From: Tridacna crocea
Taxonomy: Eukaryota > Mollusca > Bivalvia > Cardiida > Cardiidae
Length of the DNA stretch: 64,000 bases
Direction: 5' to 3'
NCBI GenBank assembly: GCA_943736015.1
Contig: OX031073.1
Coordinates: 24,827,210-24,891,209, forward strand
Each line of letters opens with the position of its first letter. Positions within the stretch are counted from its first letter, which is position 1. A program made the translations under genes and the position numbers. Below, piece after piece: positions 343-63,100 of the stretch. The notes below the pieces were generated by a model. The model had not been told where the DNA came from and made no database searches. It saw only the letters and a program-made list of their open reading frames with translations.

Positions 343-3300
343 CTAAAATACAGAATTACACCAATTAAGTCATTATATGATTATGGATCCATGAAAATCT
401 ATTTTTATCTCAATCATTAAGTAGATTGGTCCTGCTGAAAACTGGCTAAATAGCAAAAAAATTTCTACCCATGTCAGCCTATGTATCCTGACCACAGTGT
501 ATAAACAGCATTTTCTCATAAGGTTTTCTACCCTTTCAATTCTCTAATTTAATCATCATATTTTTTCAGATGCTCTGAATGCCTTTTCGCAGAGCATTAT
601 ATAAGGAAAATGTTCCAAATTAACCCTTAGGCTGCTAGGCTCGACTCACTGACCTTTTGCAGTTAGAGTAGATCAAGATCAGACTACACAGAACATGCAA
701 TCTGATCTTGGGTCTACACTATCTGATCAGGAGATATTATTCTCCTAAAACATAACTTTCAAATAGCAATATTAAGGTTTTTACAATCAAATTGAAAATT
801 TCGTTTTAGCTCTTTAGCAGGATGAGGGGTTAACCCTTTACCACACAACGACGACTTTTAACGCCCTTTGAGGAAGAGGCCTTTGAAAACTTTGTGGGAA
901 AAGGAGAAAATGCTGGTAACCAGCATTTTCTCCTTTTCCCACAAAGTTTTCTACTCTATCAAAGAAATGTTGCATCTTTTGAGCCACTATGAAATTATTG
1001 CCTACAAATGCTTTCAATTTGGATAGGCCTGGATAAAATTCTGCTGTGCGGTAAAGGGTTAAAGGACTTGTGCAAATTCAATTTTCTGCTTTGAAACTGA
1101 AATTGTGCAATAAATGGTTAACTCTTTCCAAAACAACGCAACTTTCTCCCTGTCCAAATTGAAAGCACTTGCAGACAACAATTTCAGTGCGGCTCAAATG
1201 GTGCAACTGTTTACTGACAGGATAGAAAACATTGTGGGAAAAGGAAAAATGCTGGTTACCAGCATTTTCTCCTTTTCCCACAATGCTTTCCAAAGGCTTC
1301 TTTCACAGGGGCGTCAAAAGTCGGGATTGTGTGGTAAAGGGTTAAAAGACTTGTGCAAATTCAATTTTCAGCTTTGAAACTAGCGTGTTTCTGACGTTGT
1401 GTGTAATTATTTTGTGATTGGATCCACAATGTTCCAAAGACAGCAATTTCTACACTGGTATGAAACATTTAACCCTTTACCTCATATGCCAATTTTAGGC
1501 TCTTCCGATTTAGCAGCATAATAAACATATGATGTCAAAAACATGGACAAATGGGGAAACAATTATCCGAGTGAGTGAAAAACATTGTGGGAATAGGAGA
1601 AATTGCTCGTTACGAGCAATTTCTCCTTTTCCCACAATGTTTTCAAAACCTGTCTGTTGTTGACGAGTCAAAATGAGTATCTATGGAATCAAGGGTTAAT
1701 AAATATTAAGAATATTTTTCGACAATGTTTTCTACTCTTCCAAAGACAATAACCATCATTTTTCAGTCACATATAGCGTGTCACCAGCATTTTAACTTAA
1801 ACAAGTCAATCATTTTGTCCAATACCCGCTTTCATCTGGTTTTCTTTTATTGCTTTTTGTAATTGTGCCATTTCTCTGTCCATGTCAGCATAGTTGAGAT
1901 CTCGAGACTCTACAGGTGGGGGTATAAACAGTGCAGGATCAGTTCCCAGGTATGAACACTCTAACCGTCCAGAATCACTTAATGATACTATCACACCTTT
2001 TAAATCTCTGCAGAGAAAAAAAAATCACATTAACTTATATTTATTTGTTTTTGTCTTTTTGTCAGTATTCCTTTAACTCAATTTTTGCTGCAGGATATTT
2101 TTTTAAACAGCTGCAGTATAAAACTTTCAGCAGGACCATGGCAAAAGGCTCTTTCATAAGCAGCTTCTTCTTTGTCACAATGTTTTCACATGCATTAAAA
2201 CATATTTTTTGACAATAATGCCACCTTGACACACTAGACTTTGGTATCTTTTTACTAAAAATTTTGGTCTTTAGTAAGTTACAAAAAAGTATGAAATTGA
2301 CTAATACTATAAAAAGTCAATGTTGTAAAAGTATCAAAATGTACAAACACAGTGTATGAATTTGACAAACTTTGATTCTTTCCTTATTAAGAAATTTGAT
2401 TTAACCCTTTCCCAAACAAGCCTTGGTTTTTACGTGTCTGCAGTACAAGTCTTTTGAAAACACTTTGAGAAAAGGAGAAATTGCTTGTAACAAGCAATTT
2501 CTCCTTTTCTCACAGTGTTTTCTACCCTTTAGTAGAACTTTCTATCATTTTCATCAAATTTAAAATTATTGTCTGCAAACTCTTTCAGTTTGAAAGAGTC
2601 TAAAATTTGTCATTTGGGAAAGGGTTAAGAAAAAACAAAAAATGTTTAATTTGTTTATAATACAAGTCATATTCACAAAATGATGAAACTTCTTTCCCTC
2701 CCACAGCACTATCGAAAAAACTCCAACTAAACTCTTAGAACACTATAATGGAATGTACCCTTCAATTAGGAAAATTAAGCAATAAACTGCTATTTCCAGG
2801 TTGAAATTTGTCTTTTTGGCCTGGAATTTTAAAAAAATCTGCAGATAGTGTAGATCAAAAATCAGACTGAACACTTTGACCATGATCTACACTCTCTGAA
2901 AGCCCTTTGAAGCTTACAGTTTAGGAAAACAAATAAACCCATTACCACTCAATCCCTACTTTTGACGACCCTGAGAAAGAAGCCTTTAGAAAACATTGTG
3001 GGAAAAGGAGAAAATGCTGGTAACCAGCATTTTCTCCTTTTCCCACAATGTTTTCTACCCTTCCCAAATTAAATTTTAAATTTTCAGTCACTTTTATTTT
3101 GTGGAGTGCTTTCCATTTAGACAAACCTAAAATTTTGTTGTTTGGTAATGAGTTAACTTTTTACTAAATGACAAAATTTTAGACTGGTCCAAATTGAAAG
3201 CCTTGCAAATGACAAAATAAACATAACTAAAAAATTGAAATTTGTTTCCAGCAGGGTACAAAACATTGTGAGAAAAGGAGAAAATGCAGGTTACCAGCAT

Positions 3301-6300
3301 TTTCTCTTTTTTCCACAATGTTTTCAAAAGCCTTCTTTCTCAGTGTTATTAAAAGTCGGGATGGTGTGGTAAAGGGCTAAGAACTTACTGAAAATTCCCC
3401 ACCCTCATCATAATGGGGACATGATCTAACTTGGCGGCCCATTTCAGTGTGACATCCTGATGTACCATCATTGTTTGTGTTGTTGTTGCTAGTAGATAAT
3501 TAATGGTCCCTTCTGTCACTAGAAATATAGATAATAAAATTATATTGTCTCTTGAAATGGTCTTGAGTTCCATATCCAGGAGCGGGTGTCAATTTTGGGA
3601 CTGTTCAATTCAGCACAAGCAATGGTGTAGTTTCAAGGAAGCAGAATTGAGAGAGATGTGTGGTGGTGAGGTCCATGGTCGTGAGGTAGAGCGTCGGCCA
3701 CATAACCTAAAGGTCCTGAGTTTGATAAATGGGAACGGTTGTCAACTTTGGGATTTTTCATTGGCCCAGACATTCGGTGTGAGTACTGGTATAGTTCCCA
3801 GGAAGCAGAATTGACAGAGATTAGCATAAGTTGTAAGAACCTGTTTCTCAATCGATGTAGAATAAATGTTTAAACTAACTGAGAGATAATTGTAAGAACT
3901 TGTTTCTCAATTGATTAAATAAGATATCTTTATAACTTAGTGGATAGCTTTTCAAATTTTTCTTTGGGACAAAAACCCTTTGGATAATATTTTCTGCCAT
4001 TCTTAACGTTATATATTTTTTTTTCAAATTCCTTACCACACATCAACGAGGTAGACTTGCCCTATTGAAAGCATTTGCAGAAGACAGTTTAAATGTGGCT
4101 CCAATTGTAGAGTCTGTCTTTAATAGGGTAGAAAATATTGAAAAAAAAAAATGCTGTTACGTCTTTACCATACAAGAAAATTTTAGACTGGTCCAAATTG
4201 AAAGCATTTGAAGACGACAAAATAAAGGTGACTGAAAAATTGAAATTTGTTTTGGGAAGGGTAGAAAACAATGTGGGAAAAGGAGTAAATGCTGGTTACC
4301 AGCATTTTCTCCTTTTCCCACAGTGTTTTCAAGAGGCTTCTTTCTCAGGGACGTCAAAAGTAGGGACTGTGTGGTAATGGGTTAACCCTTTCCAATTCCG
4401 TGATGACTTTTCTATTACCCTTAAAAAGAAGCCTCTGAAACGATTGTGGCAAAAGAAGAAAATGCTGTAACCAGCTTTTCCTCCTTTTTCCACAATACAA
4501 TTAATTGTACATCTCTATAACAGCATAGAAACATATATTTATACTATGATGTGTTTTATATAGATAAACAAAAAAAGAGAGATAAACTTAAGTGTAACTT
4601 ACATGAACAATAGGGTGCAAAACAGCTGACATCATATTCAAACTTCTTTGCATATCTCAGTCTGCCAGATTCAGTCAAACAATACAGGTTTCTCTCCCCT
4701 GAAATTATAATGAATTTGATTCATGAAAAAATAAAAACAACTAAAGTTTGAAGTAAATATCTTCAGTAATTACAGAGATATTATGATATGTCAAACTTTC
4801 TTGAAAATTTCATGTCAAAAATGGAGTATAACTGTCAAAAATATTTTTATAGTTATCAGCCCCTGTTGTTTCATTATCCCTTTTGATAGTTAGCAACTTG
4901 CTTAAGTTTTAACCCTTTCCCACACAATCCCGACTTTTAACAACCCTGAGAAAGAAGCCTTATGAAAACATTGTGGGAAAAGGAGAAAATGCTGGTAACC
5001 AGCATTTTCTCCTTTACCCACTATGTTTTCTACCCTCCCCAATACAAATTTCAAATATTCAGTCACTTCTATTTTGACATCTGCAAATGATTTTAATTAG
5101 GACCAGTCTAAAATTTTGTCGTTTGGTAAAGAGTTAACTCTTTACCACACCTGACTTTTAACAACTCTGAGGAAGAAAGCCTGTTGAAAGCATTGTAGGA
5201 AAAGAAGAAAATGCTGGTAACCAGCATTTTCTCCTTTTCCCGCAATGTTTTCTTCCCTGCCAATGGCAAATGCACTCATTTGAGTCGCATTTAAATTGCC
5301 ATTTGCAAGTGCTATCAATTTTGACAAGTCTAGATATTTCTTGAGTGCTAAAGAGTTAAGTAAATGTCTTCAGTATAAAGAGAGACTGCAAAATGTCACA
5401 GTTTTGGCATGACAACAACGCAAACGACCACTCTGGGGCTATGCCAATAACTTGATGTTTTCTTCAAAAACATTTGAGCTGACAAGGGTAGTATATACAC
5501 TTACCTAAGACTAGAATAGAAGGCGGGGCTGTTTGATAAGTAATTACAGCAACATCTAGAGCTTGTTCTCCAATATTAAAACACCAGTCATACTGAAAGG
5601 TTAATGTGATAAAGTAGTTTAACTGAATCAAAGATAATTTTTGCTGCTTTCAAAAATACTCCAGACATTTAATGGAAGTAGGCTCACATTTTTTCTTGCC
5701 TGTCTTTGAAGCACCTTGTCCAAGGACACTCATATGTAGGAGGGACGAGGATCTTCCGACTGAAAATCAAACACCTGTATTGTTGAGCAAGTGCAGGACT
5801 CAATGTGTTATATACAGTATATAAAAAGTCAAATGTATGAAACATACTTCAGTTGTGATAATCCTTTACACTGAAAAAAAAAAAATCAGAAGAAAAATCT
5901 CCACACTTGCATTGGAAAGTCTATTTTGTATAAAGCATTACAAAATTATATCAAGCAAGTCTTTCCATAAAATGGATCCATTTTCTCTAACAACCAGTGA
6001 AATCAAGAAGTAGAATGGCACATTAACATGCAGACAAATACAAATATCAAAAGATTCTGACTAAGATCAGCCTGAAAATGAGTTGATAGTCTTTGTAGAT
6101 GCATTAACTCTTTACCAAAATGACAAAATTTTGGACTAATCAAAATTGAAAGCATTTGCATAAGACAAATTAAATATGAATCAAAAACTGAAATTGGATT
6201 CGGAAAGGGTAGTAAACATTGTGATAAAAGGAGAAAATGCTGGTTACCAGCATTTTCTCCTTTTCCGACAATGTTTTAAAAAGCTGTCTTTCCCAGGGTC

Positions 6301-9300
6301 GTTAAATGTTAGGATTGTGTGGTAAACAGTTAAACCAGGCTTACAAATAGGGGTATCACGATACTGTGGTCCAAATGTCTATCTTGTATGAAAAATTTCT
6401 TGTCGCAAGCCTAAGTGCAGTATATGTTGCAGGTTTACGACGGACAAATTGAGATACAACTGACACTATAAATACTTACAGTTACCCTTTTCCCAGATTT
6501 AATATTTTGGGATTCTTCTTTACTTTTGGCATCTGTGGCAACAGCCAAAACTTGGTATCTGCACATGAGAAAATAGCACATTTGATAGATACTGCAGTTC
6601 TTTGAGATTTTGCTTTGCCTTACTGCCATCTTAACCCTTTTGCTGCCATACTCACCATTGCATCCAGTTTAATAAAGATCTTTTATTTTCATTGTTCACT
6701 ATGCACCATGTCAAAAAGTATAGATTCAGAAGTTCCCATGTTCGGAGAGTTTACTGTTAAAATTCAATCATTCACTACACAATCCTGACAGAAAAGCATT
6801 TTGAAAAAAATTAGGAAAGATGTTTACCAGATAACAAAATTTTAGATATGTCCGCATTCAAAGCATTTGCAGATGACAATTCAAAAGTGACTCAAATAAT
6901 GGAAAATAACCTTTGACTAGAAATCATTGTGGCAAAAGGAGCAAATGCTGGTTGCCAGCCTTATTCATTTTTTTCCCAACAGTCTCAAGTGCTTTATTTT
7001 CAAGGTTGTTGATAGGATTGTGTGATAAACATTTAAGCCAAACTGCTAAGTACCTTAAATAAAACTTTACATGCCCATAATAAATAGCCATAAATTTTGT
7101 TGCTATTTCGTCATTTGAGGGGAGAAAAAACGTCTTATCAGACAGTGTAGATCCAAGATCAGACTGCTCAGAATGAGGAGTCTGATCTTGATTTACACTG
7201 TCTGCAAAAGATCCTCGAGTTGTGCTAAGCATCCTACGGTTAATATTGACTGATTGATTGTATGGTGTCTAACACCTTTTTCAACAGTATTTCAGTTACA
7301 TAGCAGCAGCCAGTGCACCTATTTGTGCTTTCCTGGAGTTTCTGTTATCAGTACTCTACACAATATTCTTTCAAAGCCACTGGCTGCTTTCCCACATAAC
7401 CATCGTCAAAACATCAATCAGCAGAGAGAGAGGAATGAATCCAGTCGCAATGACTATCATCAATCCTTGCAAAGAAATAAGCCAAGCCAAGGATCAAACT
7501 CGCAGCCCCCTGTTCTCAAGTCCTGTAGGCTACTGACTGAGCTACCAGGGCTCCGCCTTGGGTTAATATACAACAGACAATACAGGCTCCATTATCCAAC
7601 TTACTTGTAACATTCAAGTTGCCACGCGGATGACACTGTTACAAAACTATCTAGTCTGGAGACATATTTCAATGGACCTGGCAGTAAAGACCCAGGTAAA
7701 AACCGGGTAAAGGCAAACGTCTCCTGTTCAAATATTGACACTGCCCCGTCCATAGACTGTACGCATATAAAATCTTTGGCTGAAAGGTTGAAAAAAAGTA
7801 AAGTTCAATTATTTTGCTGATATATAAAACTTTTCATAAAATTTATCACTCATAGATTATAATACAGTTTAACTCAACTATACACTGTGCAGGTCATTTC
7901 TACACTTGTCAAAGACACGTAAGCCATGCCCTATGAAAAAGGAGTTTAATCCTTTAACAAACAATCCCTAGTTTTTACAACCCTTACATAGAAGCCTTTT
8001 GAAAACATTGTGGGAAAAGGAGAAAATGCTGGTAATCAGCATTTTCTCCTTTTCCTACAATGTTTTCTAACCCAGCTGGAAACAAATTTTTTTTTAAATT
8101 TTTGAGTAACATTTATTTTATTATCTGCAAGTGCTTTCAATATGGACCAGTCTAAAATTTTGTCGTTTGGTAAAGAGTCAATGTATGTGCAGAAAGAACT
8201 GACCCAGATCAGCCTGCACAGTCCTGGCAGACTGACCTGTGTTGAAAACTTTTGCATGTGGTAAATCTTCTACATATCCAATGACTATTCTACCTCATGA
8301 TTCAGTCTTTTCTTAGACAAAATGGACATTACAGGTCCATAACAGAGCTCCAGATAAGAGGAACTGATGACATTCTAAATCCGTTATTTCTCGTCCAAAC
8401 CCTATGTTGTGGGTACTCATTAGAATCGTCTCGATGAGACGATTCTAATGAGTACCCATAACATAGGGTTTCTTGGAGAATAACTTATTTTTTCAATTAT
8501 GAAATCAAAATCACTCCCTCTATCTGAAGCTCTGCATAACATGCGATGACTTCCATGGAGATACAATAAACCCCCTTTCCCAAACATAACTCAAGCACTA
8601 TAAAGAAAAGCAAATATGCAATATATTTCAATGGTACAGGTATAAAAGTTAAAGAAAAGCTACCATTTTTACCTTTGCCCACAAATGTTTCTACCCTTAT
8701 GAAGACCCACTTCCATAATTTGATAGATCTACGATTAGACTGTCATGGCTAATTGTCTTGGAGGAGTCTATTACTTTTGTGTCTCGCAAAGATTTAACAT
8801 CCTTTTACTCTTTGGTAGTCCTCGCAATGTATATTTAATATATCCTTATCCTACTAAATAAGTGAAATGAAACTTTCAAGCCATAGTAAAAACCAGAATT
8901 ATGCTAGTACAAAGCTTTCTTCTTTTCCTTTTTTTTTTGGAGGAGGGGGGAGATCTCCTTATCAGACGATGCCTTATCAGGGAAGGCCAATCCAAGATCA
9001 GACTGCACATTCTTGATCTACACTGTTTGCAAAAGGTCCTTGTGTTGCACTTCACAGCCTATGGGTTAAAATTACTGTAGTGACTCATGAAAAGAACAAG
9101 ATAAAAATATGATTCACTTACATTTCACCTGTCCAAATGGTCCAAAACAGAAGTTATACGCTGTTCTCTGAAGTCTGTGCTCATATGACATTGTCATCTG
9201 ATACTGTGTTCCATGCTCAACTGTCCCTGACATTTCTAGAATACAAAATACAGCTGGTGGGGGTTTAACCCATCACAACACAATCCCTACTTTTGATGAC

Positions 9301-12300
9301 CCTAAGAAAGAAGCCTTCAGAAAACATTGTGGGAAAGGAGAAAATGCTGGAAACCAGCATTTTCTCCTTTTCCCACAAAGTTTTCTACCCTTCACAAAAC
9401 AACTTTCAAATTTTCAGTCATTTTTGTTTTATCATCGGAAAATGCTTTCGATTTGGACAAACCTAAAATTTTGTCGTTTGGTAATGGGTTAAACACACCT
9501 TACATGCATATGAACATTATTTTGTCTTATTCTCCGAGTTCTTCAAAATTAGAAAGTAACCATATAAATTAGCTGATCAAATGTTATGTTGTTTTTAAAT
9601 TTAAAAAATTACATATGGAGAATAAGACTTCAGAGAAAGTTTTTATGAATAGTTGGTAAATATGGACCCTGGTTATAATTTCTCGGACATAAAAAATTGT
9701 CCTTATCATAAAAATGATACATTACATTTCACGTGTCTATTTTCAGAAATGTTATGGGTAAAGAAATGTAATTTAAGCTGGGGGGAATTATTTCCCCAAT
9801 CACAGTGAATATTTTCCACCTGCCGAAAATCTGGAACTACTCTTTTTGAAAATATTGGTTATCTCGTTAATTGACTTGAGATCACTGGTATTAAACGTGG
9901 CATTTGTTGACAAAATAATCAGAGGAAATATAATATATAATTTATTTCATCAGCCTGTGGTTAATATGTGGAAATATTTGCCTCAAAATGGAAAAGTCCG
10001 TGAAAATAACTTGTGCCTTTCGGCACTCGTGTGCCTTTCGGCACTCGTACTCGTTATTTTCGCATACCTTTCCCTTTTTCTGAAAATATTTCCCCATATA
10101 ACCACAAGCTGATGAAATAAACTCTATTTATTAGACAAAAGCCTGTGATTTCAGTGTAATCAAATCCTTTTATCTTACAAAAGTTTGGATAAGCTTTTTG
10201 TGATGTCATAGGTAGAGACACTCTTTTTCAGCTCCTTCATATAAATAAACACAGCTGACTTCTATTTCACCATCAATCTGACCTTCAAAACTGATGAATA
10301 CTAACTGCAAAGTTTAAGTTTATGTAATCATAGTTTCAAAGTCTGATAAATGTACTCATATGCAAGTTTTGAACCCCATCTCTGATTCTCTCATTAGTAA
10401 GTTGGTTTTGATAAAAAGAATCTAAATCTCATAGTCTTTCTGCAAACACATTTTTGCCATGTTGTCTCAGATGGTGGTCCAAAGAAGGAAAAGCAATGTG
10501 TGATTTGACACGTGTTTTACAATCTGTTTCATTATAAAACAATCTCACATACCTGCTACATTGTAGACAGCCAGCTTTCTGGGATGCAGAACTGCTAAAT
10601 GTAATTTCTCTGTTCCTCTGTAATTTAGAAAAACAAACAAGACCTTCAAAATACAAGGTATAATAATAATAATAATAATAATGATAATACAGTAATGGAG
10701 TATGATGATGATTGTTTTCTATTCTTGTTAAATTTTTGTCCCAAAATCTGATGGGCCACCTTTAAGTATAAAATAATTTCAGATCTGAAAATAGGACAGT
10801 GTAGCCAAAGTATGTGCATGCCTTTTTTTTTATTGCCATGGTCAACATTCTTTTTGTAATCCCACAGTAGCCAGTGGTGCACTGGTGTTCATGGTATTCT
10901 AATGTGGCCCTTTGAACAAAATTCTTTCTTCACAACATGCTACTTTTTCACACAAATTGTTGAAACAATGTGCAGCAGAAGACAGTGGAATGAATCTTGC
11001 TATAAGGGCCATCATAAATTAACTGTATAACGTGAAATAGTTTGGCTTTGGCAAAGCTGGGGTTCCAACTCATGACTCATGGATTACACCATCTTTATAT
11101 TTCCAACTGAACTATCAGCTTCACTGAACCAAAGTGACTTAACCCATTACCACACAATCCCTACTTTTGACGACCCTGAGAAAGAACCCCTCAGAAAACT
11201 TTGTGGGAAAAGGAGAAAATGCTGGTCACATCCACAATGTTTTCTACCCTTCACAAAGAATGATCAATTTTTTAGTCACTTTTATTTTATCGTCTGCAAA
11301 TGCTTTGGATTTGGACCGGTCTAATTTTCTTGTGTGGTAAAGAGTTAACTCTTTACCACACGAGAAAATTTTAGACTGGTCCAAATTGAAAGCATTTGCA
11401 GACGACAAAATAAAGGTGACTAAAAAATTGAAATTTGTTCTGGGCAGGGTAGAAAACACTGTGGGAAAAGTAGAAAATGCTGGTTACCAGCATTTTCTCC
11501 TTTTCCCATAGTGTTTCCAAAAGGCTTCTTTCTCAGGGGCGTCAAAAGTAGGGATTGTGTGGTAATGGGTTCAATATCGAATCTACTCACGAAACAAATT
11601 TCCCTGCCTCTAACTGCAATACTGGATTCTGTAAAGCTGTTTCCAGTAGAACGTCCTCTGGTTTAAATCCACTCCAACCATTTTCTGTCTTTGTTGGTTT
11701 AGGATTGAATATTCTGACAATACCATGGTAACTTCCAATGATGATTTTATCTGGAAACGTGAAACACAAGCATTACATCTTAACTCTTTACCACACAATC
11801 TCGACTTTTAATGACCTTGAGAAGGAAAGCTTTTCAAAACATTGTGGGAAATGGAGAAAATGCTGGTAACCACAATGTTTTCTACCCTTCCCAAATCAAA
11901 ATTCAATTTTTGAGTTACATTTATCTTGGCGTCTACAAGTGCCTTCAATTTGGACTAGTACACAATTTTGTAATTATAATGCACTTCGGAGGGACTTTGC
12001 CCCATTCAAATTTACTTTTATCTGGCAACATGTCTGGAGTGAAGTTGTCTCATTAATCTTAATAGTAACTTAGTGTCTCCTATTTTCACAAGTTTACAGC
12101 AAAACTGTACCTTCTCTGAATGATACTGCAGAGCACCGCTGGATGTTAAATATATACTTTCATTATCAAGGCTTTGTTCTTGTTGATTTTCTACTTCAAA
12201 GGTATCTTTCTTTCTCTTTATTTTCCTGAGGTAATAAATTCACCTTGTTCTTACAACCTGGAGATAAAGGGTAATTCATAATCTTTGTGAAAAAAGGAGA

Positions 12301-12624: not shown

Positions 12625-12852
12625 TTAACCCTTTACCAAACAATCCCATATTTTTATGACCCTGACATAGAAGCCTTTATAAAACATTGTGGGAAAAGGA
12701 GAAAATGCTGGTAACCAGCATTTTCTACTTTTCCCACAATCTTTTCTACCCTGCTAGAATTAATTTTCAATTTTTAGATACTTTTATTTTGTGGTCTGGA
12801 AGTGTATTCAATTTGGACCAGTCCAAAATTTTGTCATTTGGTAAAGGGTTAA
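12625..12852 (+). mobile_element. Family A MITE copy upstream of BBS9
   Basis: TTAA at both ends, nearly perfect core. It sits about 55 bp upstream of the BBS9 start codon. Confidence 0.85.
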
Positions 12853-13385: not shown

Positions 13386-15344
13386 GAGAAATTGCTTATG
13401 ACCGTTTCTCTTCTTTTCTGATCCTGAAAAATATGGCTTTTGAAAATATCTTGGGAAAAGGACAAAGTACCAGTAACCGGTATTTTCTCCTTCTCATATA
13501 ATGTTTTCTACCCTCCAAGAACAAATTTCAATTGTGTCGTCTGCAAATTTAGAACAGTCTACAATTTTGTCGTTTGGTAAAAATTTAATGATTGTAGAAT
13601 GTGGACTGTATTTTTTCATTCTTTAATCATTTTTTCCATTTAGTGCTGGTTTTTCCATGCTGTACTGTGAAAAAATTGACTTTTATCCATACATCAAATT
13701 TTAGACCCATCCAAACTGAAACAGATTACAGAAAACAATTTTAAACTTGATAAAAATGGCGGAGAGTTCTCCAAAAGGGTAGAAAACACGGTATGGAAAA
13801 ATAAGGATAGGTGAACTTAGATACATCCAATGTGTGTGCCCTAAGTAACACTTTCTCAACCTTTACATGTGCCGATTTGAATGATATCTTCCGAAAATTG
13901 TCATCACAACTCTTGCAATCAATAAACTGTAAATTAATTCTGAGATAGATCTATTATATTTTTTTTTATGTCCGGCATCAGAAGATTGGGGCCATATAGC
14001 TTTACCCTTGTCTGCCTGTCCGTCTGCATAAACGGGGGCATTAGTGTTTCACAAACATGTGTTCTTTTTCTTTTGTCCCGGTGATTTTTTACCAATAAAC
14101 AATGTAAAGAAATTTGACTGGCAAATGTTGATTGATTGATTTTGTGGTTATTTACGCCACTTTAAGTACATTATTTCAATGCGGAAGCTCACATATATTT
14201 ATGTACATCCTGTTTTTTACCAGTAGGCCTACTAGGCAAGGGCCCTGAATTTTCTTGTCCCAGGGAATACCTGAGAAAGAACCCATGTTTTATTTATTGA
14301 GAAAGGGGATGATGAGGGTAACGTCTTTTCCCGTTTACTTCAATGTGTTGGCACTGAGAAGGGCCGTTTTTAAAACAATTTTTCGCAAAGACAGATTTCT
14401 GTGAAATTGGTGGCCTTAGCAAGGGCCGTTGGTGTTTGGAAGGGTCGTTGTTGGTTGGCCCTTAGAAGGGCCGTTTTCTTACAGTCACACTTTTAAAGAA
14501 ACATGGATTTATTATACCCGATCTGTTTCCACATGCAGCGATGTTTCCATTTGCTAAGCGGAACAGCTTCATTCCTTCTTGGAGGTATTTCTTCACATGA
14601 TGACTTGCGAGCCCTTCTTCAGTAGGGTCTTGGAAGCGGCGAAGTGAATGTACTGGCGATTCATTGTCCTCAAGCCTTCTTCTTTTATGTGTTCGTAGGC
14701 TTGTACTGTAGTGCCTTCAGAGCAGTATTCAATTCCTTTTGGTCATATCTATTTTGGTCGTCTAAACCTTTCCTAGACAACCCTTTTTGTTTAAGTGTCT
14801 GCAGTATAAATCTTTTGAAAACACTGTGAAGACAAGAAATTACCCTTGTGTTCTAACCTTTTGGAGAACTTCCCACCATTTTCACCAAGTTTTAAATTGT
14901 CGTCTGCAAACTAGTTCAGTTTGGAAGAGTCTAAAATTTGTTGTTATGGAAAGGGTTAATTCATTCGCAGTGGGCAACGATACTGACTGTAAAACACCAG
15001 AACTAGTAATGTAAAAATGGATTAATGAATGAAAAAATATAGCTGAGTTTTAGTATTACAAATTCATAAAATAGTATCTAGTTTAAAATAATAACAGTGA
15101 AATAAACTAAAAACAAAAGGACTAAGCGTAGAACCACGTCCACGTCGTCGAGTCTGGAAACATTTAAGGGCAAAAAGTTCTATGTACAACCATTTAAACT
15201 TAACCAAACGACAATTTTCAAATGATCCAAATTTGCTGACGACACAAATGAAATTTGTTACGGGAGGGTTACCAACATTTTCTTCTTTTCCCTAGATATT
15301 TTCAATAACCTTATTTTTCAAGACCAGCAATTTCTTATTTTTTC
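13386..15344. other. Intergenic stretch between the family M arms
   Basis: It holds degraded family-A remnants (13430-13600; 14762-14960, without hairpin) and a segment repeating AGGGCCGTT-type motifs (14340-14480). No exon was recognised. Confidence 0.5.
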
Positions 15345-17658: not shown

Positions 17659-17889
17659 TTTAACCCTTTACCCCATAAGGCATTTCTATGGTATCTCTAA
17701 TTGACCCTATATAACAGCAAGGATGAAGCAGTTTCATATGTATATATGACACCTTGTGATAGCATGGAAAACATTGTGACAAAAGGTGAAATTGCTCGTC
17801 ACGAGCAATTTCACCTTTTGCCACAATGTTTTCCAAAGGCTCCTACAAGCAAATGTGTAGAAATGAGTATCTGTGGAGTAAAAGGTTAA
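17659..17889 (+). mobile_element. Family A2 MITE (GTGACAAAAGG core)
   Basis: TTAA ends, but different shoulders (GCATTTCTATGGTATCTC, AGCAAGGATGAAGCAG) and a core based on GTGACAAAAGGTGAAATTGC. It is the same subfamily as 22986-23210 and 35655-35883, inverted. Confidence 0.8.
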
Positions 17890-18747: not shown

Positions 18748-18979
18748 TATGAACCCTTTACCATACAAAAGTAATTTGGACTTGTCCAAATCTGAAGCTT
18801 TTACAGACAATATTTCTAATGTGTTACAATTGATACTACTTGTTCATGCATAGGTAGAAAACATTGAGGGAAAAGGAGAAAATGCTGGTAACCAGCATTT
18901 TCTCCTTTTCCCACAAAGTTTTCAGAGGTCGTCTTTTTTTAGGGTTGTTAAAATTCGTATTCTTGTAGTAAAGGGTTAA
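18748..18979 (-). mobile_element. Family A MITE copy
   Basis: The left end decayed to TGAA; right TTAA; core GAGGGAAAAGGAGAAAATGC nearly intact. Confidence 0.75.
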
Positions 18980-19106: not shown

Positions 19107-19760
19107 TTGTGAAGATGACAATATACTATTGTACGGTCGGTCTAAGATCTAGTCGGTGACAGAAAAAACTAGGGCTGTCACTGAATGTGACTTAATACCC
19201 CCGTCAGCGCTTTGACAGAAAAAAGCGTCAAGTTCAAGGGGCGATAATTCCTCAACGAGGAAGGGTTGACTAGTATTTTGTATACAGACGGTCTCACGAA
19301 TGGACGGACGGACAGACACACGGACGGACGGACACACAGACAGACAGGCTGATTCCAGTATACCCCGAAAACATTCGTTTTGCGGGGGTATAAAAAATGA
19401 ATATGAAAACAGGGTAAAAAGACTCCAAGTGGCTTCATCCTTTGTCTACTTTTTACAAGGTTTTGATTTTTTTTTTTTTCTGCAAGCGATTAACCCTTTA
19501 CCACACAATAAAAACGTTTACCGACCATGGGAAACAATCACCTGGAAAACATTGTGGGAAAAGGAGAAAATGCTGGTTACCAGCATTTTCTCCTTTTCCC
19601 ACAGAGTTTTCTACCCTATCAAAGAAAAACTGCATCATTTTAGCCACTATGGAATTGTTACCTGCAAATGCTTTCAATTTGGATAGGTCTAAAATTGTGC
19701 CGTGTGGTGAAGGGTTAACACTTGGACGGACCGTGAAATAACAGACAGTCACCTTCACGA
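19107..19760. mobile_element. TIR element with a nested family A copy
   Basis: GAAGATGACAATATACTATT at the left faces AACAGACAGTCACCTTCAC at the right as inverted ends. It encloses a GACGGACGGACA microsatellite (19290-19345) and the family-A copy at 19490-19718. Similar inverted ends occur at 29272-29470. Confidence 0.5.
19490..19718 (+). mobile_element. Family A MITE copy
   Basis: TTAA at both ends; perfect core apart from one arm-end base. It shares the shoulder (CACTATGGAATTGTTACC type) with 830-1062, so the two are the same subfamily. Confidence 0.85.
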
Positions 19761-21546: not shown

Positions 21547-21776
21547 GTTAAACCATTACCACACAATCCCTACTTTTGACGTCCCTGAGGAATAAGCCTT
21601 TTGAAAACACTGTAGGAAAAGGAGAAAATGCTGGTAACCAGCATTTTCTCCTTTTCCCACAGTGTTTTCTACCCTTCACAAAACAAATTTCAAGTTTTCA
21701 GTCACTTTTGTTTTATCGTCTGCAAATGCTTTCAATTTGGACAAGCCTAAAATATTGTCGTTTGGTAATGGGTTAA
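21547..21776 (+). mobile_element. Family A MITE copy
   Basis: TTAA at both ends, near-perfect core. The right TTAA (21773) also starts a family-B element. Confidence 0.85.
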
Positions 21777-34443: not shown

Positions 34444-34573
34444 TACCAGAGCTCCAAGTTGAGTGAGTGGTTTTTATTTCAAAATTGAAAATGTTTCTTA
34501 TTATCATCTAAACCCTTGGAACAGAAACGATGGATTTAGAATACCATCGCTCCCTCTTATCTGGAGCTCCTTA
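34444..34573. mobile_element. Family F element without its hairpin
   Basis: CCAGAGCTCCAAGTTGAG and CCTCTTATCTGGAGCTCC ends are present, but the CTCATTAGAAT core is missing. Confidence 0.55.
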
Positions 34574-35286: not shown

Positions 35287-35658
35287 AAGGTAGTGGACCC
35301 GTAATAATTCTAGTGCAGCATGGCATAAAATTTCTTGACAGTTAATAAAGACAGATTTATACAGATATGATATTTTTGCACAATTTTATCCTGCCAGAAA
35401 TTCCTTTTATGTCTATCTTGAAATTATTCGTTGATACTTTTGTTAGTTTCCGGAAAAGGGAGGTAATTATCATATTTCTTTGTAATAAGAATATAGTGGT
35501 TTTAGATTTATAAATTATAATTCTATGAAGGACAAAAAAGAAAAAAAAAATGGCTCGGTGAAAGTAGTACAATAAAGCTCATTTTTAATCTTAGCAAATT
35601 TTGTAGGACGATATTATAGTGGAAATAACTGTTTTCTATTACGGGTCCACTACGTTAA
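35287..35658. mobile_element. Family S MITE, TTAA-flanked
   Basis: TTAAGGTAGTGGACCCGTAA faces TTACGGGTCCACTAC-GTTAA. It is 370 bp with no coding content, and its right TTAA starts the family-A2 copy at 35655. Confidence 0.8.
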
Positions 35659-35883
35659 CCCTTTACTCCATTGATACTCATTTCTACACATTGCTTGTAG
35701 TAGCCTTTGGAAAACATTGTGTCAAAAGGTGAAATTGCTCGTGACGAGCAATTTCACCTTTTGTCACAATGTTTTCTATGCTATCAAAAGGTGTCATATA
35801 CCCATAAAAAACGGCTTCATCCTTGCTGTTATTTAGAGTCAATTAGAAATACCATAGAAATGCCTCATAGGGTAAAGGGTTAA
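35655..35883 (-). mobile_element. Family A2 MITE copy
   Basis: TTAACCCTTTACTCCATTG to GGTAAAGGGTTAA; core GTGTCAAAAGGTGAAATTGC with one mismatch. Shoulders match 17659-17889 inverted. Confidence 0.85.
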
Positions 35884-39470: not shown

Positions 39471-39628
39471 TGCATTACACCTGCACTAAAACAGTTGAGC
39501 TATGCCATCTGGTCGTTGCCATCTCTTCTGTGCCAAAGATATCTATAAACCCGATCTTTTTGTCAGCTTATAGAAAAATCCAATGAAACTCAGGCAGACT
39601 TTTATATCTTATCAGCTTGATTGATTCT

Positions 39629-39851
39629 TTAAAATACAACAAAATTTTGAATTTGTCGAAATTCAAAGCAATTGCAGACGGTAATTTAAGGGTGTCTCCA
39701 GTGATGGAACTGATCTTTAATCGAGTAGAAAACAATGTTGGAAAAGAAGAAAATGCTGGTTTCCAGCATTTTCTCCTTTTCCCACAGTGCTTTCAAAAGG
39801 TATACATTCCTCACGATCTTTGAAAGTGGGCATTGTACAGCAAAGGGTTAA
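39629..39851 (-). mobile_element. Family A MITE copy
   Basis: TTAA at both ends; core TGCTGGTTTCCAGCA, with small mismatches. Confidence 0.78.
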
Positions 39852-41295: not shown

Positions 41296-41524
41296 TTAAC
41301 CTTTTCCCAAACGACACACTTTTGGAGTAGACCAAATTGAAAGCATTTGCAGACGACAATTCAACTCTTGCTGAAAAGCTGATTTCTGTCTATGATAGAG
41401 TAGAAAACACTGTGGGAAAAGGAGAAAATGCTGGTTACCAGCATTTTCTCCTTTTCCCACAATGTTTTCAAAAGGCTACTGTTCCAGACCCGTAAAAACC
41501 AGGGATTGTTTGGGAAAGGGTTAA
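41296..41524 (-). mobile_element. Family A MITE copy
   Basis: TTAA at both ends (TTTTCCCAAACGAC and GGGAAAGGG termini); near-perfect core. Confidence 0.85.
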
Positions 41525-42346: not shown

Positions 42347-42576
42347 TTAGCCCATTACCAAACAACAATATTTTAGACTGGTCTAAATTGAAAGCATTTG
42401 CAGATGACAAAATAAAAGTGACTGAAAATTTGAAATATGTTTTATGAAGGGTAGAAAACATTGTGGGAGGAGAAAATGCTGGTTACCAGCATTTTCTCCT
42501 TTTCCCACAATGTTTTCTAAAGGCTTCTTTCTCAGGGGCGTCAAAAGTAGCCCTGAATTGTGTGGTAATGGGTTAA
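42347..42576 (-). mobile_element. Family A MITE copy
   Basis: The left end decayed to TTAG; right TTAA. The left arm lost a few bases (GTGGGAGGAGAAAATG). Confidence 0.8.
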
Positions 42577-42650: not shown

Positions 42651-42882
42651 TTAACTCTTACCAGACAATCCCTTGTTTTTACGACCCTGAGATAGAAGCC
42701 TTTTGAAAACATTGTGGGAAAAGGAGAAAATGCTGGTAACCAGCATTTTCTCCTTTTCCCACAATGTTATCTTTACTGCTGAAAAGAAATTTTAATTTTT
42801 TAGTTACGTTTATTTTGTCGTCTGCAAATGCTTTTAGTTTGGACAAGTCTAAAAATAAATTTGTCGTTTGGTAAATAGTTAA
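42651..42882 (+). mobile_element. Family A MITE copy
   Basis: TTAA at both ends; perfect core to the last arm bases. Confidence 0.85.
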
Positions 42883-42955: not shown

Positions 42956-43182
42956 TTAACCCTTTCCCAAACAAGCCCTTGTTTTTACGTGTCTGCAGTA
43001 CAAGTCTTTTGAAAACAATGTGGGAAAAGGAGAAATTGCTCGTAACGTGCAATTTCTCCTTTTCCACAGTGTTTTCTACCCATTTGGAGAACATTCTGCC
43101 ATTTTTATCAAATTTGAAATTGTCGTCTGCAAACTCTTTGAGTTTGAAAGAGTCTAAAATTTGTCGTTTGGGAAAGGGTTGA
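42956..43182 (+). mobile_element. Family A MITE, variant core (AATTGCTCGT type)
   Basis: Left TTAA; right end TTGA. Core GAGAAATTGCTCGTAACGTG. Confidence 0.82.
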
Positions 43183-43450: not shown

Positions 43451-43678
43451 TCATCTTTACCACACGAGAAAATTTTAGACTGTTCCAAATCGAAAGCATT
43501 TGCAGAGGACAAAATAAAGGTGGCTGAAAAGTTGAAATTTGTTCTGGGAAGGGTAGAAAAACACTGTGGGGAAAGGAGAAAATGCTGGTTACCGACATTT
43601 TCTCCTTTTCCCACAATGTTTTCTAAAGCCTTCTTTCTCAGGGGCGTCAAAAGTAGGGATTGTGTAGTAATGGGTTAA
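43451..43678 (-). mobile_element. Family A MITE copy
   Basis: The left terminus is eroded; right TTAA; core nearly intact (GGTTACCGACATTTTC). Confidence 0.8.
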
Positions 43679-48192: not shown

Positions 48193-51100
48193 GTGAGTTG
48201 ACCTGTTGCTAGACCTGTTCATACCCCACCCCTCCCTCATAATAGGACGTTCCACTGATAGAAAGTCTTGTTTTATGGTGATACTGCTCCCAAGGGAAAT
48301 GATTTACTCGTATTATTGGCTTGCAACACGCGAAAAGGGGCATTCGGAAATTTGCGTAAAATGTCGTCTCGGATCAGCCTGCGCAGTCCGCGCAGGCTGA
48401 TCCGAGACGGCTTTTTACGACTTCATTAGATTTTGTACTTTATCAGATTTACACAAAACGAAAAAAAACATTAAAATCATAAATTTCTTCTTGATAGCGT
48501 GTGCGGACTGCGCAGGCTGATCCGAAAAGACATTTTACGCAGATGTCCAAATTCCTCTTTTCGCGGGTTGCAGAATATATGACCATTATTCCATCCGGAA
48601 GCCTCGCTCTACGGACGCCCACCCCAGATTTTGACTGACACCCCCAACCCCCTCCTCCGCCGTCGCCTTCAAAAAATTTCTTCGGATTTGAATTCAATCT
48701 TTTTTTTTTTGGTAACATAATCGATTATTGCCCCCCCCTCCCCCCCCCCCCCCCCACCATTTTTGCATTACTTTGAAAAGGGGTGTGGAGGTCAAATCAT
48801 CCCAATTTGAGAATTTCTAGGGAAAATCGTGTTTTCCTTCCTCCTCCTCCTACCTCGGTGAAATTTATCGTCAAATTATCGAATAGGATAAACAAAATAA
48901 TTATACAGTTCCGGAAGTGGTATAGGCCTTTCAGAAAAAAAGTAGTGCACTGAATGGAGGCTACGGGAGTCCTCCAGCTTTAGACCCAGATTACCTCGAG
49001 CGGATCGTCTTACCCCATGGCAGGATTTGCAGGGGATATCTTAAAATGGGATACTTGTAAGACTCTAGTCAATGGGTATGTGGGAAAGAAGCTATTCGCA
49101 TGAAAGTACTGACTTGCATTGAGAAGCTAAGAAATCAGAACTGAAGGACTGGGTCCGTATTCACCGACCATTCTTGAGAATATTCTTAGTCTTATTCTTC
49201 AAAGTTTTGTCAGTGTGAAAGTAACAGAACTTCTGATTGGCTAAACCATTTGGTTTAGCCAATCAGAAGTTATGTTACTTTCATAGTTAGAAAATTTTAC
49301 AGAACATGACAAAGAATGTGTTCTTAAGAATGGTTGGTGAATACAGACCCTGGTCTCAGAGATAGCACTGTCGTCACTTAAACAATGAGTGAACGATGCT
49401 CGAGCAAATGGAAGTTTACTGTATCACTGTGAAGCATCACCAAGCAAGTCCGCATATAATTATGGATTCATTAACTCTTTACCATGCAGACGCAAAAAAA
49501 TTTAGACTGGTCTCAATTGAAAGGATTTTCAGACGATATATCAAATGCAACTGAAATGACATTATATGTTGTGGTTCGGGTAGAAAACATTGTAGGAAAA
49601 GGAGTAAATGCTGGTTACCAGCATTTTCTTCTTTTCCCACGATGTTTTCTAAAAGCTTCTATCTCAGGGTCGTAAAAACCACATACTTTGTGGATCGGGT
49701 AGAAAACATTGTGGGAAAAGGAGAAAATGCTGGTTACCAGCATTTTCTTCTTTTCCCATGATGTTTTCAAAAGGCTTCTATCTCAGGTTCGTAAAAACCA
49801 CATACTTTGTGGATCGGGTAGAAAACATTGTGGGAAAAGGAGAAAATGCTAGTTACCAGCATTTTCTTCTTTTTTGTCCCACGATGTTTTTAAAAGGCTT
49901 CTACCTCAGGGTCATAAAAACCGGGGATTGTTTGGTAAAAGGCTAAGTCCCTTAAGTCTGAAAATTGACTGGATATTGAGGTAGAGTATCCTTTGATAAG
50001 AAAAAAAATTTAAAAAGTAATAAAAAGTTTCGACGTAGATCAGCCTTGGTGAACTGCTAATTGTCAGCTGAGTCGGTATTTTTTTTGAAATCCCCTTTTC
50101 AGAGAGTATGCTCATTTGAAATAATTACTTGAGCTGCTCCGAAGCACGGTGTAAAAGTCGGCTTTCTTTCAATCAGTCGACGACGATTATATCGATTGCA
50201 ACACGCGAAAAGGGGCAATCGGGCATTTGCGTAAAGTGTCGTCTCGGATCAGCCTGCGCAGTCCGCGCAGGCTAATCCGAGACGGCACTTTATGGCTTCA
50301 TTAGACTTTGTACCACAGTAGACTTGCGGCGCAAAACAGATAATTACATAAAAACGGAATGTCCCTTTCCGCATATTGCAAGCCAGATATGAAAAAGCAA
50401 CCAGAGTCTTGGAAAAGTATTGTGTGGTAGCTTCAATCTCTTTGCAAATTGATTATTCATGAAGGATGTGAAGTTAAGAACCTGCCAATCGGGTTCTGTT
50501 TTTTTTTCAGACAGTAGCAACGAAATAGTTGGACTCATGGAAGATAAAGAGATAGCTGCCCGAGCAGTGGCGTTTGTTGTAAACAGTACGAGAAAAGGTA
50601 TCATACCACTCTGTGCTGATGTGGCTCACCTGATGAGATCTAAACAAAGGTAAGGCTGTACTTCGGAATCAGTCATGTTAGATTCCTTACTACATGCATG
50701 GATGCTTGGCTGGGCCAGTTTTGACCCCTGGGGCATTATGTGAAGAAACTTGGCAGAGGTCCACTTGGCGATGCCACATACCAAATATCAAAGCTGTACG
50801 CCTTCCAGTTTCAGAGAAGAAGAATTTTAAAGTTATCCTTCTTTGTTCCTATGTTCAAACTTGTGACTCCTGGGGAGGGGCCAGTTTTGACCCCAGGGAC
50901 ATCATATGAACACACTTGGTAGAGGTCTACTAGGAGATGCCACATACCAAAATATCAAAGCTGCACGCCTTCCAGTTTCAGGGAAGATGAATTTTAAAGT
51001 TTTCCCTCTTTGTTCCTATGTTCAAACTTGTGACTCCTGGGGCGGGGCCAGATTTGACCCCAGGGGCATCATATGAACAAAGTTATATACCAAATATCAA

Positions 51101-60100: not shown

Positions 60101-63100
60101 GTATTTTTTGATGTTATTCATCGATTCAACAATCAGTTGATCCATTTGTCATCCACTTAACCCTTTACCAAACGACAAAATTTTAGACCGGTCCAATTTG
60201 AAAGCATTTGCAGACGACAAAATAAAGGTGACTAAAAAATAGAAATTTGTTCTGGGAAGGGTAGAAAACACTGTGGGAAAAGGAGAAAATGCTCGTTACC
60301 AGCATTTTCTCCTTTTCCCACAGTGTTTTCAAAAGGCTTCTTTCTCGGGGGCGTCAAAAGTAGGGATTGTGTGGTAATGGGTTAATATAAACCACTCACC
60401 TATCCATCTATCACTCACTCACCTTTCAACCTTCAACCCACGACCTTTTCACACACAATCTTTTTTTTTTGCAGCTGTCCGAGTGAACGCTAAGCTTGAG
60501 GAAGAACTGAATGTTGCAAGGCAAGAAATCGACCACCTTAAAAAGAGAATATCAAAAATGGAGGTAAAGCTTCATTAGTCAGTTCCCTCTTCTAATTATA
60601 TGGTGATAGGAATATTTTTCCATTTGTTGCAATATTTATATAACTTTCGTGACATTAACTATGTTTTAGCAGATCACCTTGACTAACCCATTTACATTTT
60701 ATTGAACTTTAGCTGTGCTAAATTAGCAAAAGCATCAAACAATTATGTCTGGTCACATGTTATTGTGTGTTAATAAAATAGTATGTATTGATTGAAAAAA
60801 GAATGAAGGTATGGGTATTAAAGTCTGTAGGAAAACTTTGAAGGTAAACGTTTTCATTTTCATAAAGGAAAATCACAACTTTATGAAGTAACTTCTATCG
60901 GACACATTGAAAGTTGGTGCATTTGTTGTCATAGAAAACCGTTGAATATAATTCTGTGTATATATTTTTTTTTTATAGAAAAAACAATGTAAATGAAAAG
61001 TATTGGCGTTTCTTGAAAGTATACACACCGTTTGAACTTTCTAAATAATTAAGAAAACTAATTCAGTTCTAGCCCCAAAACAAGCACCTCCCCTCTAAGA
61101 TGCCTGAAGGATCCCTCTATCGCCACCCTAATGCCCCCACTTCGACCACTTTTATGATGTTTTTCACATATTCTATCTTTGAAAGGCATGTGGTGCGATC
61201 CCGAAGAGTTACAGTAATTACCACGAAGATGACAAAAACGCGGAAGACAACGGTTACTATACTGGGAGTAACAGAACCTCGCGAAATAGTTCGGAACATG
61301 AAAAATCTAGGTAATCTATTGTAAATACTTCTTTCAATAAGTAGGGCTATTTCAACTTATAATTTAGCCATACCCTTGAAAAGGGCACTGAATACATTTT
61401 TAGAATGTGTCAACCAAGGACAGCCTTGAAAGTTCTCGAATAACCTTAGTTGAATATTTTGCTATTAGTTAATTTTCTTTATGTTAAAGAATCAAGTGTA
61501 CCCCCATGTTTTGGTTTGTTGGTAGATGAAACAGTTCTTATGGATCCATCATTGCCTGCTGCCTGGCTTGGCATAATGCATACTAGAGATGCTTTAAATC
61601 CCCATTTAAAAGGTCATGGCTCATAATTACGTTACCCTTCACGCAAAAAGGGACCATTTGGGAATTCTGTACATCAATAAGATGAAAACAGATCAACAAT
61701 AGTGCCGGTCAGTTTCAGCTGATAGCTCAAAAATGATTGTTTAACAAGGTACAATAACCAATTTTCATACAAAAGATGTCATTAAAGCGAAAAGTGTCGA
61801 CTCTGGACAGCCTGAGCAATTCGCGCAGTCTTATCAGGGTTGAAACTTTTGGCAGTTCCCAGAAGGTCCCTTTTTGCGTGATCAGTCAGTAATTCAATAG
61901 GAATTTCTAACATTCTACACGTATAATTTTCACTGTATGAAACAGTGGTTTACTGAAAGGTTCCAAGAGCCATACGACAGCACCAGTATCCTATAAAGGT
62001 CCATTGCCAGGGTGTAAATGTTCTGCGTGTCAAGAGGCGATGGGCAGCGAGGATGATCTTTCACATTATTGTGACCAGTATCTAGAAGAACCGGCCCGCT
62101 ACACTGTCAAGTGAGTTTCACTGTTTATCATGCCACAGGCCTTTGATGCTTCAGTAGTTTAATACTGAAAATTTCGGTTGTCATTTATCGAACGTTGTTA
62201 CTAAAAATAGCACATTTACTCATACCCTCGAAGCCGCATATAATTGATATATACAACATAGAGGAAATGTTGTCGTGTGCTTTTTGGGAATAACAGCTTT
62301 CCATGATCAAGCAATGAAAATTTCGGTCATACATGATAGACAAATGAAGCTTGAAAGGCCTTTACAATCCTGTGTTTTCATGAAGCCTCTTAAAACGTTG
62401 TAGGAACAGAGTGAAATACTAAAAACCTACTTTGTCTCCCTTTCCAATGATTTTTATCTACATTTCTAAAATGATTTATCATTCTAGCCACTTCTTATAT
62501 TTCGTCTGCAAATGCTTTTAATTTGAAACAATTTAAAACTTTGTCTTCTGGAAAGATTTAAACTCATAACCGTATGAAAACTCATAGAGGGGCTAACTGT
62601 TTAAGGCTATTTCACGCATAGAATATGAAAATAGCTTTGGAAAAAAATAAAGATTTATTACTGTTTCAAACAATTAAACAAAAAAAAAACTAGTATCCCT
62701 TTCTCAAAAGGGTCATTTTAGGCAGTTTTTAGCATGTATAAAGTAAGATATTTTTTTATGTACGATCGAATTATTTTCAGTCTATAAACACCAAAAACCT
62801 TACTATTTCACTTATGACTTCGCGTCTCGATTTTTGTGTTCAATCAATGATTTCTTTTATAATACAATGTTACGAATGAGGCGTAGAAAGAAGCTGAAGT
62901 AAAACCAACAACAACATCTTAACAAATAAAAAGATTTATTAATCAAACAAAATGAATTTGCAGATCAATAAGTCGAGTGACTTTACAGATTCCAAATACA
63001 TGCAATGTATTTTTGATAAAGAAAATTCCCTCAATTGTTTCAAATACAATTATACCAACCTTTTATCTGATCCCGAAAATGATCCTTAAACAATCCAGTC

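Follow-up and report, generated by a model that had tools for sequence, protein, structure and literature searches.

A 64,000-nucleotide stretch of the genome of the bivalve Tridacna crocea (GenBank assembly GCA_943736015.1, contig OX031073.1, positions 24,827,210 to 24,891,209 of the forward strand; hereafter the window) is densely occupied by one family of short, TTAA-flanked transposable elements with a 67-bp palindrome in their middle. The element is a non-autonomous miniature inverted-repeat transposable element (MITE) of the piggyBac type. Across its subfamilies, changes in one arm of the palindrome are accompanied by matching changes in the other, suggesting that the palindrome aids jumping; the explanation favored here, at a probability slightly under one half (about 0.47), is that the palindrome would act as an internal docking module for a transposase.

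Anatomy and target site of the element

The family was delineated with an nhmmer profile grown from the copy at 830-1062, with overlap between matches held to at most 30% of their length. In the window, this model returned 62 matches (32 on the plus and 30 on the minus strand) covering 18.2% of bases, whereas a control on the reversed sequence of the window and the loci collected by then returned none. A sequence-only reading of the window had described a dense TTAA-flanked family with an internal palindrome, more than 40 copies at one per 1.5 kb, ending at position 60,385; the family and the minimum count are borne out, but the spacing is closer (one per ~1.03 kb) and copies reach 62,554. One model does describe a single family, as had been proposed, but its copies fall into several subfamilies and are spread genome-wide rather than being specific to the window.

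The consensus is ~230 bp long and reads TTAA-CCCTTTACCACAC ... 67-bp palindrome ... GTTTGGTAAAGAG-TTAA. Within the TTAA sites, a 13-14-bp terminal repeat (CCCTTTACCACAC-like) is followed by a left shoulder of ~40 bp, the palindrome, a right shoulder of ~90 bp and the second terminal repeat. The palindrome consists of 33-base arms around one central base, so that the single center had been recognized correctly while the earlier length of 65 bp was short. Perfection is rare in single copies: of the 40 gap-free palindromes in the window, 2 show no mismatch and 22 no more than two. The corresponding values are 7/65 and 32/65 in a 124-kb unselected sample (the window plus six arbitrary 10-kb stretches picked by round coordinates), and 14/145 and 78/145 over all loci, 30 of which were fetched for an exact core. 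Loci fetched from the genome carry L-numbers below; some were chosen for similarity, and the 30 for the exact core.

An independent search of the 124-kb sample for ends only (TTAA plus a 9-bp end, at most two mismatches) found 42 end pairs, all overlapping the family model, and 30 of them enclose the palindrome; the other 12, judged by their length, include pairs spanning two elements and truncated or decayed copies. The element thus regularly includes the palindrome, which is no artefact of searching with it. The element is short, has terminal inverted repeats and a high copy number, and is non-coding as far as its coding capacity was sampled, all of which characterize MITEs. A Pfam search with 10 of the 20 window open reading frames of at least 110 aa (counted between stops; the 10 are not strictly the longest) returned a single match (rve), below the cut-off, and the viral_contigs collection contained no match to the palindrome core.

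Either 33 (strict cut) or 35 (slightly looser cut) near-full window copies reach both ends of the model. Of the 35, 18 have TTAA within 4 bases of both expected ends, 16 at one end and 1 at neither, against a chance expectation of 7% per end; over all loci, both ends have TTAA in 81 of 144 near-full copies (overlapping loci included). Exact TTAACCCTTTACC occurs 6 times and exact GGTAAAGGGTTAA 4 times in the window, alongside end variants CCCATT, CTCTTT and CCCTTTCCC; the earlier statement that each intact copy has TTAA and fixed ends was thus too strong. Duplication of TTAA was examined by joining the flanks of copies and looking for unoccupied relatives. The 440 junction-spanning matches came from 78 queries, and among the matches listed many were MITE-in-MITE or tandem and were set aside. 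Of five empty-site alignments, one is clean: when the sequences on either side of L036:1757-1984 are joined, they align to an unoccupied relative in L041 across a gapless junction with only one TTAA. Two others (window 21548-21776 against L004 and L041:9288-9516 against L040) have gapless junctions at targets one letter off TTAA, and the remaining two both come from the query L042:4609-4837, aligned to two relatives, with a less clear junction. The clean empty site supports duplication of TTAA on insertion, so that the empty-site comparison by which the sequence-only reading could have been refuted came out in its favor.

The majority ends, CCCT, agree with the piggyBac terminal motif CC[C/T]T (PMC2872659), although the common CCCA and CTCT variants fit less well. 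The termini of Kolobok elements and T2-MITEs are RR (AG..) beside the TTAA (PMC6004289); because the ends here begin with CC, the element is of the piggyBac type rather than the Kolobok type. Combined with TTAA duplication and a genome rich in piggyBac transposases (118 matches to PF13843), this agrees with the piggyBac-type signature seen in the sequence-only reading.

Abundance across the genome

The assembly containing the window comprises 1.049 Gb in 31 contigs. An exact 31-base palindrome core occurs 91,934 and 91,619 times on the two strands, 183,553 times in total, while its backward control does not occur in the genome. The 124-kb sample contains 21 exact cores, scaling to 177,619 per genome; this is close to the count, so the sample is representative in core density. 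Since the core is spanned by 98 of the 125 MITE matches in the sample, scaling by the exact-core count gives an estimate of ~0.86 million core-bearing copies genome-wide, with a Poisson error on the 21 cores of ~22%. In the six arbitrary 10-kb stretches the MITE makes up 2.3 to 42.7% of the sequence (mean 17.9%, standard error 5.5 points), and the family is therefore genome-wide and not peculiar to the window. The sampled copies are not very recent: nearest-neighbor distances among 150 near-full copies have a median of 0.13 and a minimum of 0.036, and the best relative of the copy at 830 among the 40 of 5,774 candidates that were scored is 91% identical.

Conservation and paired change of the palindrome arms

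Conservation was compared over 70 near-full copies from the unselected sample. From the closest to the most distant pairs, distances grow from 0.12 to 0.63 in the shoulders, from 0.11 to 0.30 in the terminal repeats and from 0.06 to 0.22 in the palindrome (0.627, 0.303 and 0.216, respectively, in the most distant pairs). The palindrome has the lowest distance in every class, below both terminal repeats and shoulders, and the per-column majority follows the same order (arms 0.92-0.93, terminal repeats 0.83-0.86, shoulders 0.74-0.76).

Covariation between the arms was assessed in 121 of 127 listed palindromes, 112 of them distinct. Cells changed on both sides number 67, compared with 13.0 +/- 3.3 after shuffling and 18-29 when the pairing is slid, and are strongest at pairs 7/61, 8/60, 14/54, 21/47, 26/42 and 31/37, the last of which appears as GC, CG and UA, plus GU. 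The covariation signal sits in few pairs that are common to whole subfamilies. Within one copy the arms differ by 0.105 (64 copies), compared with 0.136 +/- 0.003 when arms are re-paired between copies, and none of 2,000 re-pairings was as low.

The changes were placed on a tree built from the shoulders only of 150 copies, 70 from unselected sequence and 80 from loci chosen for similarity or exact core. Branches leading to at least four copies carry 6 paired changes, 5 restoring changes and 2 single breaks. At two pairs the change falls on the root split, whose two sides account for four of the restoring changes; counted as paired, it gives a ratio of 8:2. The remaining restoring change concludes a two-step change at pair 27 via a mismatched intermediate. 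Terminal branches carry 413 single, 20 paired, 6 restoring and 20 other changes, so that large and terminal branches differ with a Fisher p of 6e-7 (6:2 vs 20:413) or 4e-9 (8:2). Genome-wide, at the pair 8 bases from the center, one arm is changed in 1,392 copies, both in 33 and neither in 183,553, where 2.6 doubles would be expected if the arms were independent; a core with symmetrical changes at two pairs is present in 12,325 copies. Symmetry is therefore a property of widely amplified lineages, while individual insertions decay mostly singly.

An explanation that dispenses with function is that the arms are kept alike by arm-to-arm copying, through hairpin or cruciform repair or through template switching in replication. 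This is the strongest of the alternatives, yet considered improbable as a full account. It agrees with the lack of arm-specific difference between copies (same-arm distance 0.1388, opposite-arm 0.1387), with the roughly twelvefold excess of doubles over independence at the tested pair and with the 20 paired changes on terminal branches. However, the preponderance of single changes, both on terminal branches (413 vs 20) and genome-wide (1,392 vs 33), indicates that copying after insertion is rare, and the 33 doubles could belong to one small subfamily. Additionally, copying alone should not slow change, whereas the palindrome changes at a third to half of the rate of the shoulders and below that of the terminal repeats. 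Arm-to-arm copying may thus contribute to the symmetry but would by itself leave the slow sequence change unexplained; constraint on sequence and symmetry together points to a symmetrical binding partner.

Candidate transposases

Many of the 118 PF13843 matches are fragments, and 30 loci were fetched. Four families with defined ends (A to D) are listed in Table 1. Family A (L051, L052, L053 and relatives) has a 624-codon stop-to-stop frame; its elements are 99.9% identical on different contigs, and on this sequence identity the family was probably active recently. A CCTTTACCACACA-like end pair at L051 was assigned to flanking MITEs rather than to the transposase element, and an A-rich end pair in L074 was disregarded.

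A different group, consisting of L063 (with near-identical relatives), L060 and L046, has 57-80% protein identity within the group and no more than 41% to the remaining representatives in the comparison; pairwise amino-acid identity to L063, assessed without a tree, is 80% for L060 and 57% for L046. Alignments of MITE halves to the non-coding flanks of these three loci gave p<0.01 in 6 of 12 tests (floor 1/501; stretches hand-chosen), while the same test on one element each of families A to D and on L045 gave 0 of 20. TTTGGTAATGAC, a MITE-like right end, lies 512 bp (L060) and 361 bp (L063) past the stop codon; allowing one mismatch, this word, chosen after it had been seen, occurs 7 times in the 124-kb sample, each time in or beside a MITE. 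L046 also contains 5 palindrome-only pieces in 4.1 kb, compared with 0.36 expected from the 11 in 124 kb. Between L060 and L063, pS is 0.795 (synonymous sites saturated) and pN 0.128, indicating strong purifying selection on the protein. The L063 protein aligns nearly full length to piggyBat (9c0f, 9e-40) and piggyBac (6x67, 4e-36), including the Cys/His-rich C-terminus and three aspartates, which we take to be the catalytic residues. From these similarities, the L063/L060/L046 group is a candidate for mobilizing the MITE.

Two further observations concern this group. In L061-L065, L070 and L073, an intact piggyBac-type frame lies within a unit longer than 4.1 kb; this unit is 99.5-99.98% identical across L061-L065 on five contigs and includes several MITE copies, so that its recent spread may have used ends outside the unit. 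A non-coding block past the stop codon, L060:3040-3100 (CATGGGCCATGATTAAGAGCGCCTCC..GTGTGGCCTGGATGTGGCTGGAT) and L063:2985-3050, is well conserved despite the saturated synonymous sites and has no Rfam match.

Mobilization by another piggyBac family, for instance family A with its CCCTTTATATAC ends, is an unlikely alternative in which the similarities at L063, L060 and L046 would be old MITE remnants. Family A shares TTAACCCTTT with the MITE and its copies L051-L053 are 99.9% alike, shoulderless palindrome pieces are present in ordinary sequence and in L074, and 88 of the 118 transposase matches lie beyond the fetched set. However, 12 bodies of families A to D (mostly near-identical copies of few families) contain no palindrome-like place in 32.7 kb, and the flanks of one element of each family gave p<0.01 in 0 of 16 tests, the single p of 0.04 reflecting the shared TTAACCCTTT end. 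In the L063/L060/L046 group, two members that diverged anciently have the MITE-like right-end word downstream.

Possible role of the palindrome

In piggyBac and piggyBat, paired cysteine-rich domains (CRDs) of the transposase dimer bind palindromes near the transposon tip, and the left end of piggyBat has three palindrome-like motifs (PMC11707139). The T. cro­cea element resembles piggyBac of T. ni and piggyBat in having a palindrome within the element and a Cys/His-rich C-terminus in its candidate transposase. The palindromes of those elements are 14-19 bp long, near the tip and, in piggyBat, imperfect (PMC11707139), whereas the one described here is 67 bp long, central and in a MITE. By analogy, the MITE would move by piggyBac-type cut and paste at TTAA with a transposase made elsewhere, and its central palindrome could be an enlarged CRD-type docking site, perhaps used by both ends. 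Copies whose half-sites match would be mobilized best, such that amplifying lineages would keep their arms matched and their sequence conserved, and each copy would decay mostly singly after insertion. On this reading, palindrome and transposase alike would most likely derive from the L063/L060/L046 group, an ancestor of which would have become the MITE by internal deletion. The fullest version of this account is put forward tentatively and is on the whole doubtful: that a family of about a million copies (~18% of a 1-Gb genome) owes its success to the palindrome as a shared symmetrical docking site, kept matched by selection among amplifying copies and served in trans by a transposase group that has long been under purifying selection and whose own element ends have partly decayed.

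Several observations weigh against docking and the proposed partner. The arms, at 33 bp, far exceed the 14-19 bp of CRD palindromes. Two-sided change of any kind affects 12 pairs, an unremarkable number given 8.5 in shuffles (36 of 500 reached it) and 11-15 when the pairing is slid. The branches that lead to two or three copies, with 1 paired and 6 single changes, behave like terminal branches (p 0.29), and pooling all internal branches lowers the ratio to 7:8 vs 20:413, still at p 6e-6. Two single breaks occur at subfamily level, one of them retained as a G-T mismatch. Among the closest copies the palindrome already differs half as much as the shoulders (0.062 vs 0.117), so that part of its slow change is unexplained by selection among source copies. 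The likeness between the terminal repeat and the arms of the palindrome is suggestive at best (equaled in 159 and 290 of 5,000 shuffles), and the idea that they are a duplicated motif was rejected as resting on too weak a similarity.

On the transposase side, an intact MITE-like end pair (CCCTTTACC pairs, within 1.5 kb) was found at 0 of the 30 fetched loci; the search for an autonomous partner proposed in the sequence-only reading thus produced a transposase group with partial matches but no element whose two ends are intact and match. In L060 and L063 the right-end-like word has no following TTAA, and no left end was found at either. Palindrome-only pieces number 0 in L063 and 1 in L060, and 2 in L074, which is outside the group; with 11 such pieces per 124 kb of general sequence, the pieces in the L063/L060/L046 flanks may be old MITE remnants. 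The repeated unit carrying L061-L065 exceeds the 4.1 kb examined, and its ends lie outside.

A further explanation, regarded as quite improbable, is that the palindrome acts as RNA, with a long hairpin transcript (microRNA-like or a source of small interfering RNA) shielding the element or regulating the host. The 830-1062 copy does fold strongly (-59.6 kcal/mol with DNA parameters, z -11.8, equaled by none of 200 shuffles), and an RNA helix would show paired changes, including G-U routes such as those from GC to AU with GU at 13/55 and 20/48 and from UA to CG with UG at 8/60. Human Made1 MITEs, which are likewise able to form a hairpin, gave rise to mir-548 (PMC1784062). However, five of the six pairs richest in two-sided cells show flips (AU to UA at 3, GC to CG at 2) rather than G-U steps, and Rfam gave no match in the window, L063, L060 or L046.

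Comparison with known systems

The palindrome of Made1 is built from the terminal repeats themselves, in contrast to the one described here, which sits between two unlike shoulders. By description, the closest published elements besides the piggyBac and piggyBat ends are the CMITEs of Acropora corals, which are piggyBac-type, TTAA-flanked elements with CCCTTT-like ends in most families and tandem arrays; their interior varies less from family to family than their terminal repeats do, as is also the case here (PMC2872659). The CMITEs differ in being about 100 bp long and in numbering ~1,600 in A. millepora; the main text of that paper uses neither "palindrome" nor "hairpin" and leaves the origin of the internal region unexplained (PMC2872659). 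The T2-MITE/Xmix elements of Xenopus are likewise TTAA MITEs with long-lived subfamilies and amplification of inner segments but have Kolobok-type AGGRR ends (PMC6004289). A Kolobok-type assignment, Kolobok being the other known TTAA-duplicating superfamily, could draw on the TTAA sites, the long-lived subfamilies and the amplified inner segments resembling Xmix/Xstir (PMC6004289), but was rejected as very improbable because the ends begin with CC and not RR (AG..), although no search aimed at Kolobok transposases was made. A survey of bivalve transposons mentions abundant unclassified MITEs (PMC10294476).

No parallel for a palindrome-bearing piggyBac MITE was found in the open-licence literature searched, in keeping with the earlier suggestion that such a palindrome is unusual and perhaps undescribed. 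As far as this literature was searched, the palindrome, its paired evolution and the scale of the family are undescribed.

Copies and other repeats in the window

The principal copies are listed in Table 1. Nine neighboring window copies abut within 6 bp, as expected if the TTAA-carrying ends themselves serve as targets. In one MITE (49569-49922), a palindrome-bearing 119-bp unit is repeated ~2.9 times in tandem, indicating that the inner segment can expand in this way, a behavior also reported for other TTAA MITEs.

Table 1. Copies of the MITE in the window and piggyBac transposase families of the genome
Feature	Position or length	Strand	Remarks
Full copy	830..1062	+	TTAA both ends; perfect 67-bp palindrome at 885-951
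Full copy	1118..1345	-	TTAA both ends
Full copy	1469..1699	-	diverged subfamily; core changed symmetrically (TTGCTCG.. / ..CGAGCAA)
Full copy	2401..2628	+	core GCTTGTAACAAGC, third pair state at that position
Full copy	2936..3155	+	
Full copy	3154..3378	-	adjoins 2936..3155 copy
Full copy	4162..4385	-	
Full copy	4909..5137	+	right TTAA common with 5134..5359 copy
Full copy	5134..5359	+	
Full copy	6105..6332	-	
Full copy	7948..8179	+	
Full copy	9265..9492	+	
Copy	11139..11348	+	palindrome mostly deleted
Full copy	11346..11571	-	adjoins 11139..11348 copy
Full copy	12625..12852	+	TTAA both ends
Copy	14764..14958	+	collapsed palindrome
Full copy	17660..17889	-	most diverged subfamily
Full copy	18752..18978	-	
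Full copy	19490..19718	+	TTAA both ends
Full copy	21548..21776	+	joined flanks match empty relative in L004; gapless junction, target one letter off TTAA
Full copy	24086..24314	-	
Full copy	24385..24608	+	strand opposite to 24086..24314 copy
Full copy	33933..34157	-	
Three copies	34567..35221	-	head to tail (34567-34779, 34786-35006, 35009-35221)
Full copy	35655..35882	+	most diverged subfamily
Full copy	37235..37464	-	
Full copy	39626..39850	-	
Full copy	41297..41524	-	
Full copy	42349..42575	-	
Full copy	42655..42881	+	
Full copy	42957..43180	+	
Full copy	43454..43677	-	
Copy	49472..49944	-	119-bp palindrome-bearing inner segment ~2.9x in tandem (49569-49922)
Full copy	60157..60385	-	TTAA both ends
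Truncated copy	62380..62554	+	
Transposase family A	about 2,765 bp		ends CCCTTTATATAC
Transposase family B	about 2,606 bp		ends CCCT(T/A)GTCATGC
Transposase family C	2,693 bp		ends CCCTTTCAGCGC
Transposase family D	2,883 bp		ends CCCATTTATGCC

Other repeats were also seen. A separate nested inverted-repeat family at 28089-28451 and 46245-46980 has arms of up to 96 nt, the motif TGTGCCTCATAAC and a two-copy 145-bp tandem, and is unmatched by the MITE model. A two-copy 167-bp tandem (GGGCCAGTTTTGACCCCAGGGGCATCATATG...) lies at 50712-51216 and is, we presume, reminiscent of mollusc repeats. In L041:1282-4211, a tandem array of ~165-bp units is interrupted by a MITE insertion. The sub-threshold rve (integrase core) match lies at 30367-30705 and is perhaps a decayed retroelement or Maverick fragment.

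Conclusions

If the reading of the palindrome as a docking module is true, this family would be among the most successful MITEs on record and would offer hundreds of thousands of replicate palindromes as a natural experiment. Through the paired changes on the branches that found subfamilies, what a cut-and-paste transposon requires internally in cis could then be deduced from its sequence, which bears on the question, open for the CMITEs, of why the interior of a MITE should be better conserved than its ends. The family also means that a nuclear genome can carry a near-perfect palindrome of ~67 bp with a one-base center in very high numbers.

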